Positions 22,091 through 61,299 of a stretch of DNA of 64,000 nt are shown in pieces. Below the pieces are notes generated by a model. That model made no database searches, was not told the DNA's origin, and worked only from the letters and a program-made list of their open reading frames with translations. The DNA is taken from NCBI RefSeq assembly GCF_028858725.1, contig NC_084772.1, forward strand, positions 21,925,548 through 21,989,547, written 5' to 3'. How positions within the stretch are numbered: the first letter of the stretch is position 1; every line of letters starts with the position of its first letter. The translations under genes and the position numbers were made by a program. Origin of the DNA: Colius striatus. Its lineage: Eukaryota; Chordata; Aves; Coliiformes; Coliidae.

Positions 22091-22360
22091 TCACCTCCTC
22101 TTCACGAACTTGCCGGTGACGGCGTTGGGGTTGAGGCGGCGGCGGCCGGCGCCCAGCGCCGCGTCGCGGATCTGCAGCTGCGCCGCGCGGCTGTACACGT
22201 CGTTCTCGGCGAAGGGCGACGGCCCCGCCGCGTAGTCGGGGTCGAACACGTTGGTTTTCTGCCGGGCCTTGCGGGACAGGCGCTGCTGCGGGAAGCGCTG
22301 GTCGGCCACCAGCTGCGGGTTGTTGGCGTGTTTCCCTCCCTGCGGCGCCGGCAGCGGGTA
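22091..22360 (-). CDS. NOB1: NOB1 exon 9 with stop
   Basis: YPLPAPQGGKHANNP, LSRKARQKTNVFDPDY and GAGRRRLNPNAVTGKFVKRR then TGA at 22091-22093. The last ten residues are basic, as in orthologues. Confidence 0.95.
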   Translation of the reverse strand, partial: YPLPAPQGGKHANNPQLVADQRFPQQRLSRKARQKTNVFDPDYAAGPSPFAENDVYSRAAQLQIRDAALGAGRRRLNPNAVTGKFVKRR

Positions 22361-25300
22361 CTGCCGAGGGAAAGCGCCCGTTACATGGCGCCTCTCGCCG
22401 ACGGAGCCGAGCGGGCTGACCCCGACGCCCCGCGGCCAGGCGCAATGGCGGCAGAACCGGAGCCCTGCCTCGGCCCCAGCAGCGCCAGCCCCGGGGGACG
22501 CCCCAGCAGACACTCACCCGCAGCCCGCGGGGGTTCAGCACCTTGGGGTTGCGGGAGAAGTGCATGTGCAGGCTCCCGTCCTCGCTCACGCTCACCGCCA
22601 CCTTCTTCAGCGTCTTGTTACCGCAGTGAGGACAGAAAACCTTGCTCATGTCCGAGGTGGTCCTGCAAGATGGGGACAAGGGGGTTGTTCCTGCTCCCTG
22701 GGCTGTGGAATGTGGGCTCTGGCCAGGAGCAGCAGCCCAGCACTGCTCAGCACACACACACTCACCTGAAGCAGCCCAGCACTGCTCAGCACTGCTCAGC
22801 ACTGCTCAGCACACACGCACTCACCTGAAGCAGCCCAGCACTGCTCAGCACACACACACTCACCTGAAGCAGCCCAGCACTGCTCAGCACTGCTCAGCAC
22901 TGCTCAGCACACACGCACTCACCTGAAGCAGCCCAGCACTGCTCAGCACACACACACTCACCTGAAGCAGCCCAGCACTGCTCAGCACACACACACTCAC
23001 CTGAAGCAGCCTCAGCACTGCTCAGCACTGCTCAGCACACACACACTCACCTGAAGCAGCCCAGCACTGCTCAGCACACACACACTCACCTGAAGCAGCC
23101 TCAGCACTGCTCAGCACATGCACACTCACGTGAAGCAGCCTCAGCACTGCTCAGCACACACGCACTCACCTGAAGCAGCCCAGCACTGCTCAGCACACAC
23201 ACACTCACGTGAAGCAGCCTCAGCACTGCTCAGCACACACGCACTCACCTGAAGCAGCCCAGCACTGCTCAGCACACGCACACTCACCTGAAGCAGCCCA
23301 GCACTGCTCAGCACACGCACACTCACCTGAAGCAGCCCAGCACTGCTCAGCACACACACACTCACCTGAAGCAGCCTCAGCACTGCTCAGCACACACACA
23401 CTCACCTGAAGCAGCCCAGCACTGCTCAGCACTGCTCAGCACACACACACTCACCTGAAGCAGCCTCAGCACTGCTCAGCACACACACACTCACCTGAAG
23501 CAGCCCAGCACTGCTCAGCACTGCTCAGCACACACACACTCACCTGAAGCAGCCCAGCACTGCTCAGCACACACACACTCACCTGAAGCAGCCGTGGCAG
23601 CGCAGGATGTAGCTCCGGGCCTGGCGGATCAGCCGCCCGTTCACTGCCAGCACGTGGAGGCCCATCTGCAGCAGCACGTTCTGCCAAGGGGAGGGAGGAA
23701 CCCAGACACCCTGAGCTGGGGCCGCCAGGAGCTTTGCCTGGCGTTTGCCAGCCGAGGGAAGCGATGCCAACGGCTTTGCAGAAGGGAGAAAAGGGGCTGC
23801 TTTGAAGGTAAAGGAGCTGTTACAAGGCTGCTCTCGTGCTGCCCAGGGACTCAGAGGTGTGCTCCTCTGTCTCAGTGTGCTGTTTAAGCAGCCCAGAGGC
23901 TGGAGTAATGTGTGGATCTGCCCATGGTTCCCCATTACCCCCTGCTCCTCAGGCTGGGCCGTGCAGGGCAGCAGCGTCCAGCACTCACCTGCATGGCAAA
24001 GTCTGTGGTGACGCAGCCGACCTGGACCCCAACGGGAACAGTGTCACAGTGCCCCAAGTCCTGCTGCACCTGCTTGAGGTTGCTGGGTGTGATCCAGCCC
24101 TCGTCATCACTCTCCTCCTCATCCTCCTCGGCACTGCCTCCATCCTCAGAGCTCTGCTGCTCCTCGGACGTCTCTTGGCTGACGGAGATGGCTTCAGCTT
24201 TCTGAGGGGAGGAGACAGCTCTGGCACACACCAGAAACCAGGACAGCGAGGAGAGAGGAGGGTTTGGGTCTCACCAGCAGCTCCTGCAGCTCCTCCTCGA
24301 TGCTGGGCAGGGGAGCTCGCCAGTACAGGAAGGAGCTGAACTCGTCACTCTCTGAGGGGCCGGTGCTGCTCTCAGGGCTGGGCTGGTGCTGGCCCTTCCC
24401 TGGGCGCTTGTGCTGTGGGGTGACACGGGACAGGGGAGCCCCTGCCTGCCGCTGCCCGCGGGCTCTGCGGGGCTGCGTCCCTGTCCCTTACCTTGGCGGG
24501 CAGGTGGAAGCCAGCGAGGTGCACGGGGGCCTCGGGGTGCTGAGGGGTGGAGCTGAGCCGCACCTGGGGAGGCAGCGCGGGGGGTCGCCAGGGCTCCCCG
24601 GGGACGGGGCCCCATCCCTGGCGCGGGCCCTACCTTGTCCTGCGGCTCCCAGCGGAGGCTGCCGGTGCCGTCGGTCTCGGCCTGCAGCTGGCATGTGAGG
24701 GCAAGCACCTGCAGGTCTGCGGCCGAGAGGCTCGGGTAGTCCCCGGTCTTCTTGGAGAAGTCGGTGACTGCGGGGCGGGGGAAGGGGCGGCGCTGAGCCG
24801 GGCGCGGCCGCTCTCTCCGGTACTCACCGAGGCGCAGCAGCGCGGGCGCTCCGGTACTCACCGAGGCGCAGCAGCACGGGCCGCGGGCGCTCCGGTACTC
24901 ACCGGGGCGCAGCAGCGCGGGCGCTCCGGTACTCACCGAGGCGCAGCAGCCCGGGCCGCGGGCGCTCCGGTACTCACCGGGGCGCAGCAGCGCGGGCGCT
25001 CCGGTACTCACCGAGGCGCAGCAGCACGGGCCGCGGGCGCTCCGGTACTCACCGAGGCGCAGCAGCACGGGCCGCGGGCGCTCCGGTACTCACCGGGGCG
25101 CAGCAGCGCGGGCGCTCCGGTACTCACCGAGACGCAGCAGCTCGGGGCGCGGGCGGCGGAGCCGCAGCTCGCAGGGCAGCGCGGACAGGCGGCGGCGCGC
25201 CGCGCGGTCGCGGATCTCGGCCAGCACCTCGGGCACGGTGTACAGGTTCAGCGCCAGGTCCTGCGGACGGCGCGGTCAGGCCGGGCGGGTCCCCGCGCCG

Positions 25301-25397
25301 CTCCCCCCGCCCGCTGCCCCGGGGCCGCCGGTACCTGCAGCGGGGCCGCGCTCAGGAACGCGCCGCTGTCGGCCACCACGTGCGGCACGCGCGCCAT
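22091..25397 (-). CDS. NOB1: NOB1, 20S-pre-rRNA endonuclease, complete
   Basis: PIN-domain endonuclease that cleaves the 3' end of 18S rRNA in late cytoplasmic pre-40S particles. Minus-strand exons: 25335-25397, 25128-25260, 24634-24767, 24492-24563, 24275-24412, 23989-24201, 23583-23680, 22518-22662, 22091-22360. Together 1,266 nt, 421 codons plus stop (human 412). Residues 1-110 form the PIN domain, beginning MARVPHVVADSGAFL with the conserved acidic Asp. An acidic linker follows (about 180-215), then a zinc ribbon made by RCHGCF and FCPHCGNKTLKK, and the C-terminal QKTNVFDPDY and GAGRRRLNPN motifs. The start ATG lies in GCGCCATGG. It is head-to-head with WWP2 across a CpG island. Oddity: introns 2 and 7 are minisatellites built from their own splice donors. 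Confidence 0.97.
22518..22662 (-). CDS. NOB1: NOB1 exon 8 (second half of zinc ribbon)
   Basis: TTSDMSKVFCPHCGNKTLKK supplies the second CxxC, then VSEDGSLHMHFSRNP and NPRGLR. Acceptor cttgcag; donor gtgagt. Confidence 0.95.
22734..23582 (-). repeat. NOB1: 39-bp minisatellite of the exon-7 splice donor, 20 donor copies
   Basis: Minus-strand unit: ggctgcttcag (exon tail), gtgagtgtgtgtgtgctgag (donor and intron), cagtgctg. The basic period is 39 bp, lengthened by one or two extra copies of a 10-bp module (actgctcagc in plus view). I counted 20 donors including the authentic one at 23582; two have CAC|GTGAG. The array fills about 850 of 920 bp of the intron. The many open frames across it are not genes. 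Confidence 0.96.
23583..23680 (-). CDS. NOB1: NOB1 exon 7 (first half of zinc ribbon)
   Basis: NVLLQMGLHVLAVNGRLIRQ then ARSYILRCHGCF, with the first CxxC of the zinc ribbon at the very end. The exon ends in TGCTTCAG and the next codon position begins the donor gtgagt, so read-through meets an in-frame TGA at once. This junction is the seed of the adjoining array. Confidence 0.95.
23989..24201 (-). CDS. NOB1: NOB1 exon 6 (acidic linker)
   Basis: KAEAISVSQETSEEQQSSED leads into an acidic run (EEDEEESDDEGW), then ITPSNLKQVQQDL and VGCVTTDFAMQ. WITPSN and TTDFAMQN are NOB1 signatures. Phase 0, donor gtgagt. Confidence 0.94.
24275..24412 (-). CDS. NOB1: NOB1 exon 5
   Basis: HKRPGKGQHQPSPESSTGPS then FSSFLYWRAPLPSIEEELQE. 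The FSSF-W-PLP-I--ELQELL block is conserved in NOB1; the front half is lineage-variable linker. Donor gtgaga. Confidence 0.92.
24492..24563 (-). CDS. NOB1: NOB1 exon 4, 24 codons
   Basis: VRLSSTPQHPEAPVHLAGFH then LPAK, phase 0 at both ends. The human counterpart reads IQHPETPLHISGFHLP. Donor gtaagg. Confidence 0.92.
24634..24767 (-). CDS. NOB1: NOB1 exon 3 (PIN domain)
   Basis: Encodes VTDFSKKTGDYPSLSAADLQ and VLALTCQLQAE to WEPQDK. It carries the conserved Asp of GDYPSLSAADLQVLAL, part of the PIN active site. Donor gtaggg. Confidence 0.94.
24813..25127 (-). repeat. NOB1: 34/41-bp minisatellite of the exon-2 splice donor, 9 donor copies
   Basis: The donor TACTCAC (plus-strand view) occurs at 25121 (authentic), 25087, 25046, 25005, 24971, 24930, 24896, 24855 and 24821. 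Spacings are mostly an alternating 34 and 41. Each copy carries ctgctgcgCcTCG-like exon tail and gtgagtaccgg. The 41-bp form has a seven-base insert (ggcccgt-like). The array nearly fills the 360-bp intron. Confidence 0.95.
25128..25260 (-). CDS. NOB1: NOB1 exon 2
   Basis: Encodes DLALNLYTVPEVLAEIRD to RRPRPELLRL, split CTC G|TC. Its last 13 nt (ctgctgcgtctcg) plus the donor gtgagtaccgg are the seed of the adjoining tandem array. Confidence 0.93.
25335..25397 (-). CDS. NOB1: NOB1 exon 1 (start of PIN domain)
   Basis: 21 codons from ATG at 25397 to Gln (MARVPHVVADSGAFLSAA). The Asp of VADSGAF is the first metal-binding acidic residue expected of PIN nucleases. Donor gtaccg, phase 0. Confidence 0.93.

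Positions 25398-27227: not shown

Positions 27228-61299
<34,072 letters not shown>

Follow-up and report, generated by a model that had tools for sequence, protein, structure and literature searches.

How can a gene be expressed when one of its introns offers twenty nearly identical donor sites in a row and the use of any but the first of them ends the protein, and by what process could such an intron have arisen? Both questions are raised by NOB1, the gene of an essential ribosome-assembly nuclease, on the minus strand of a 64,000-nucleotide stretch of DNA from the bird Colius striatus (this whole stretch is called the window below). The window corresponds to 21.93–21.99 Mb of a 22.98-Mb contig (C16), about 1 Mb from the contig end. 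An earlier inspection of its letters (the sequence-only reading) had described intron 7 of NOB1 as a minisatellite of its own 5′ splice site with 20 donors.

The gene was rightly named in that reading: the predicted protein of 421 residues matches human NOB1 (6g18 chain y) over its full length, with an E value of 2.4e-181. The number given for the intron is right too. The exons contain no stops and encode a full-length protein, so that the coding exon beside the array is unaltered. A tblastn search of the 1.21-Gb assembly with the last 240 residues of NOB1 gave four matches, every one of them an exon of NOB1 in the window, and no second copy or retrocopy was found by this search. The GC content of NOB1 is 67.6%, compared with 58.0% for the window, and the introns other than 2 and 7 measure 70, 73, 74, 79, 157 and 308 nt. 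Three other minisatellites of the window, at 52659–53113, 28966–29559 and 38290–38733, have 28-, 30- and 40-bp units; the one at 52659–53113 begins about 45 bp after a donor-like GGTAAGT. Among nine open reading frames of the window that were scanned, one gave a WW domain (E 1.9e-11) and another a weak HECT match below the cut-off (E 0.00031), both on the plus strand, which suggests a WWP2-like gene there. The coordinates of the NOB1 features are collected in Table 1.

Table 1. NOB1 features, in positions of the window. A slash within a sequence marks the exon–intron border.
Feature	Position	Strand	Remarks
NOB1 coding region	22091..25397	minus	9 exons, 421 aa; from homology and translation
NOB1 exon 7	23583..23680	minus	98 nt; supplies 11 exonic bases of every intron 7 unit
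NOB1 intron 7	22663..23582	minus	920 bp, phase 2; mostly donor array
NOB1 exon 8	22518..22662	minus	145 nt
NOB1 intron 2	24768..25127	minus	360 bp, phase 1; mostly second donor array
Intron 7 donor array	22731..23593	minus	20 units GGCTGCTTCA(G or C)/GTGAGT...; unit 1 spans the exon 7/intron 7 border
Intron 2 donor array	24815..25155	minus	TRF call; 9 donors, 34 bp apart (4 intervals) or 41 bp apart (4 intervals)

The end of exon 7 and the start of intron 7 read GGCTGCTTCAG/GTGAGTGTG. With at most one mismatch, the 17-base border sequence GGCTGCTTCAGGTGAGT matches the window 20 times, always on the minus strand and between 22760 and 23593, and it has no match in 100 dinucleotide shuffles of the window. 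The authentic donor lies at 23582 and its 19 copies extend from 23543 to 22765, which makes 20 donors as claimed. The unit had been described as the last 11 bases of exon 7 followed by the donor, in 19 near-perfect copies, and this is what we observe: 17 of the 19 copies are identical over the 17 bases, and GTGAGT, and with it the GT, is kept in all 19 in the assembly sequence. Eighteen of the 20 donors read CAG/GTGAGT, while those at 23208 and 23129 read CAC/GTGAGT, with C at position −1. The 18-mer GGCTGCTTCAGGTGAGTG has 18 matches in the 1.21-Gb assembly, all inside this array. The span of 22734–23582 given previously was right as to position, though the array is slightly wider and runs from 23593 to about 22731 when its exonic part is included.

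The basic period of 39 bp was also confirmed as the commonest unit length, found in nine of the 19 units; the others measure 40 bp (five), 49 bp (two), 50 bp (one) and 59 bp (two), and the units of 49–59 bp carry one or two extra 10-bp sub-repeats. A 39-bp unit comprises 11 exonic and 28 intronic bases, donor included. Over this 39-base core 11 of the 19 copies equal unit 1, with a mean pairwise difference of 0.89 of 39. Certain unit lengths recur as neighbours (49 + 40 twice, 39 + 59 twice), which suggests that blocks of two units were copied. After the last unit stands GGCTGCT, the same 7 bases that open every unit, followed by other sequence; these 7 bp may be an incomplete final unit, or else the microhomology that served the first duplication. 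Deviating bases occupy 10 of the 780 core positions, and two of these 10 fall in the nine donor positions, approximately the share expected by length. The decoy donors show no sign of purging or of preservation, a weak indication given that the units are non-independent.

What would a wrong choice among these donors cost? Every junction had been held to read AGG TGA in the NOB1 frame. The first junction does so, and this is sufficient; the remaining ones need not, as the length of 10 of the 19 units is not divisible by three. The consequence drawn from it, an in-frame stop from any donor but the first, stands: on translation, all 19 later donors lead to ...C F R stop and to a protein of 284 aa. 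Under the rule of nonsense-mediated decay, the stop has to lie more than 50–55 nt before the last exon junction. Here it lies at least 180 nt upstream of that junction, so each mRNA made from a later donor fits the rule and would be a candidate for decay. The sequence-only reading had concluded that the gene depends on choosing the first donor or loses transcripts to decay, both of which are predictions. Exon 7 would grow from 98 nt with donor 1 to 137–275 nt with donors 2–5 and to more than 300 nt beyond. Donor 20 gives an intron of 103 nt, and its use would abolish the NOB1 protein. With the reading frame intact and NOB1 essential, donor 1 must be used often enough.

How donor 1 could be distinguished from its copies was examined at the level of the donor and of the local RNA. 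The donor 9-mer is ruled out as the selector, since 17 copies share the nine bases of the authentic donor; splice-site scoring, which the sequence-only reading had proposed, likewise placed 17 of the 19 copies as high as the authentic donor in a simple matrix for human donors. In the copies the upstream CUGAGCAG can pair with the copy's own CUGCUUCAG, a pairing that the authentic donor lacks. RNA structure was nevertheless rejected as the selector, as donor 1 does not stand out in accessibility, predicted with three settings of the folding window: several copies are as open as donor 1 or more so, and donor 1 of intron 2 is likewise not singled out. With the 9-mer and local structure excluded, donor 1 is still set apart by the exon 7 body and its acceptor, which suggests selection by exon definition.

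Arrays of this kind extend beyond intron 7, and in this respect the earlier description was incomplete: a second one lies in intron 2 of the same gene, and others in PRIM1 and RPL10A. The donors of intron 2 read YCG/GTGAGTACC, and its copies have CG rather than AG before the GT. Compared with the final 25 bases of exon 2, the eight copies fall into two groups of four: those that follow the preceding donor at 41 bp agree at 22 of 25 positions, the remaining ones at 16–17. By the same simple matrix, three of the eight (CCG/GTGAGT) outscore the authentic TCG/GTGAGT. If used, donor 2 would shift the frame and give 158 aa, and donors 3–9 would lead to a stop after 77 aa. From the last donor, intron 2 measures 60 nt. 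If the array copies are removed, introns 7 and 2 both become short, and their last donors give sizes near those of the other short introns of the gene.

Elsewhere in the genome, motif searches were made and 16 further regions with donor-motif arrays (13 + 3), chosen among the matches listed, were examined. A position at a coding exon was confirmed by homology in two of the 16, namely PRIM1 and RPL10A, and the other 14 were judged by eye on 240–300 upstream bases. In PRIM1 (C32:1950000-1957000, minus strand, 4.2-Mb contig) the exon ending in EYLSLVK is followed by an intron of 1271 bp, in which the last 16 bases of the exon recur in 29 further exact copies, 28 of them with GT and 13 with GTGAGT. 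The second PRIM1 copy has the site GTGGTT, which is not a strong donor, and its use would insert 39 nt in frame with no stop. The RPL10A exon (C27:2781500-2787500, 9.3-Mb contig) has five donors in a row, and the repeat begins at the donor itself. A long array with a unit of about 61 bp containing GCAG/GTGAGT lies at C187:62000-71000 on a 98-kb contig; no exon was identified there by eye.

The nine-base donor CAGGTGAGT, repeated three times at 24–54-bp spacing, gave 11 matches versus none for the reversed motif; 10 of the 11 lie in the NOB1 intron 7 array, and the eleventh belongs to a short array on contig C35 that resembles a simple repeat. The triple of CAGGTAAGT has no match in the genome, nor does its control. 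Genome-wide, three copies of GGTGAGT matched 435 times and the reversed motif 405 times; triples of AGGTRAGT gave 28 matches versus 78 in one search and 33 versus 92 in another; all these counts are of overlapping triples, so that long arrays dominate them. The 28 AGGTRAGT matches group into eight loci, three of which are NOB1, PRIM1 and RPL10A. A general attraction of tandem arrays to donors was rejected, since there is no clear excess over the reversed motifs (435/405, 33/92 and 28/78).

A closely similar phenomenon has been described in chicken. Hron et al. (2026, Genome Biol Evol, PMC12954441) report sequence stuttering, in which blocks of tens to hundreds of bases form imperfect tandem repeats. 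In some of the genes, where it is termed exon stuttering, the repeat includes a coding exon's edge together with the donor or acceptor there, and the exon stays intact. According to their account, 236 chicken introns are affected, 190 on dot chromosomes and 46 elsewhere, and the length of a stuttered intron differs between individual chickens. Among the matches listed in our searches of the literature on repeats, intron gain and donor choice, the phenomenon was recognised only in that paper, the main text of which does not name NOB1, PRIM1 or RPL10A. NOB1 resembles the cases reported there in that exon-edge and splice-site copies stand in tandem and are confined to the adjacent intron, that the coding exon is intact, that it is a GC-rich bird gene and that several of its introns are hit. 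The source as reported, an exon border with adjoining intron bases, is likewise what the intron 7 units contain (11 + 28 bases). Two differences were noted: NOB1 lies on a 22.98-Mb contig, whereas dot chromosomes are preferred, though not required, in the published account; and the intron 7 units have 11 exonic bases, under the exon match of at least 20 bases (with a bit score of at least 42.1) of the published screen, which is a limit of detection rather than a definition. In intron 2, half of the copies carry a match of 22 over the last 25 exonic bases. Judged by this analogy, the NOB1 arrays fit published exon stuttering closely, and NOB1 would be an additional case of an avian instability already in print.

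Taken together, we consider it probable that stuttering copied the ends of NOB1 exons with their donors, that the copies are passive, and that exon definition mostly picks donor 1 while most of the remaining transcripts are decayed. Tandem-duplication instability of avian GC-rich introns would have placed 19 copies of the exon 7 end and its donor in intron 7 and, separately, eight copies of the exon 2 end and its donor in intron 2. The first copy in intron 7 may have arisen by slippage or microhomology-mediated duplication between the exonic GGCTGCT and the same 7 intronic bases, and the array may later have grown by slippage, unequal exchange or conversion, with the copies as presumable by-products. 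Donor 1 would mostly be used because it alone adjoins exon 7, with the true acceptor and the enhancers of that exon, and transcripts from later donors, ending after residue 284, would mostly be removed by nonsense-mediated decay. This explanation draws on the second array in the same gene and the PRIM1 and RPL10A arrays in the same genome, on the low divergence of the units and the recurring unit pairs, on the GC-richness of NOB1, on the published chicken precedent and on the decoy donors, which look neither purged nor preserved. Counted against it are the 23-Mb contig, whereas published cases are mostly on dot chromosomes, the donor-motif arrays without clear excess over the reversed motif, and the confirmation of only two of 16 further arrays at coding exons. 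Against the use of donor 1 in particular counts the 103-nt intron of donor 20, which is near the other NOB1 introns (70, 73, 74, 79 and 157 nt).

Could the copies instead have a function, or be harmless for another reason? Their number might tune NOB1 output, more decoys causing more decay, so that array length acts as an expression dial. All 19 decoys are indeed decay-competent by the 50–55-nt rule, with the stop at least 180 nt before the last junction, and 17 of them score as high as the authentic donor in the simple matrix; yet the decoys are without sign of constraint, and arrays of the same kind in intron 2, PRIM1 and RPL10A speak for a mutational process that acts generally, which leaves a regulatory array unlikely. 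An alternative interpretation is that splicing corrects itself. The product of donor k still holds an intron that begins at the first GT and ends with the CAG of copy k, and a second splicing step there would restore the exact normal mRNA and make wrong donor choices harmless; the array might also be removed stepwise, in a recursive manner. CAG precedes GT in 17 of the 19 copies, and a tandem genomic duplication of AGGT has been described as a route to intron gain, with a demonstration in vivo (PMC3443670). In both cases a duplicated AG/GT segment yields paired donor and acceptor-like sites; unlike that system as reported, the NOB1 segment straddles an existing border and adds donors rather than a new intron, and its copies are weak acceptors.

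The acceptor side bears directly on self-correction. The pyrimidine fraction from −20 to −5 is 0.50 in all 19 copies, compared with 0.69–0.94 at the eight real NOB1 acceptors, and the nearest upstream AG is 10–16 nt away at the copies, compared with at least 17 nt, or none within 40, at the real acceptors. A recursive splice site, or ratchet point, is a strong acceptor directly joined to a donor; the intron 7 copies have CAG/GTGAGT, with a weak pyrimidine tract and an AG within 10–16 nt, and do not qualify as such sites. Moreover, donor 2 would leave an intron of 39 nt, probably too short, and the CG ends of the intron 2 copies do not provide the AG. We therefore regard self-correction as very improbable, and just as improbable the wider proposition that donor arrays are tolerated, and can reach dozens of copies, through self-correction, in which case NOB1 intron 7 would be a multi-step recursive intron made by mutation alone. 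We give equally little credence to an assembly artefact, by which array length would be inflated or copies falsely homogenised. The array does rest on a single assembly; this assembly is long, however, with 191 contigs for 1.21 Gb, the window contains no N, NOB1 is single-copy, and the variation among the units, in length as in bases, is structured. In chicken, the intron structure of PHF8 was verified by raw nanopore data according to the authors (PMC12954441).

The preferred reading, stuttering with mostly exon-defined use of donor 1, meets its main difficulty in what is reported for pairs of donors. In ER-alpha exon 1 the intron-proximal of two comparable donors is favoured, by a mechanism stated as not known (PMC6002489), and in DOK7 intron 4 the intron-proximal donor is preferentially selected (PMC5585400). 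As in these two systems, the NOB1 donors compete for one intron and their products differ. In both, as described, there are two donors and the intron-proximal one is normally used, whereas NOB1 has twenty and needs the most distal. The intron-proximal rule (PMC6002489) thus predicts donor 20 and counts against our explanation.

For avian genomes, these arrays suggest that exon stuttering is confined neither to dot chromosomes nor to long exon fragments. With stuttering outside dot chromosomes and with short exon parts, the published counts may be low. The choice among comparable tandem donors is itself an open question, for which NOB1 intron 7 provides a ready natural test, since the nine donor bases are identical in 18 of the 20, neighbouring donors lie 39 to 59 nt apart, and any wrong choice leads to the same stop. 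Donor 1 is expected under exon definition, donor 20 under intron definition and the proximal rule, and it is mainly as a natural experiment in donor choice that the NOB1 array matters.
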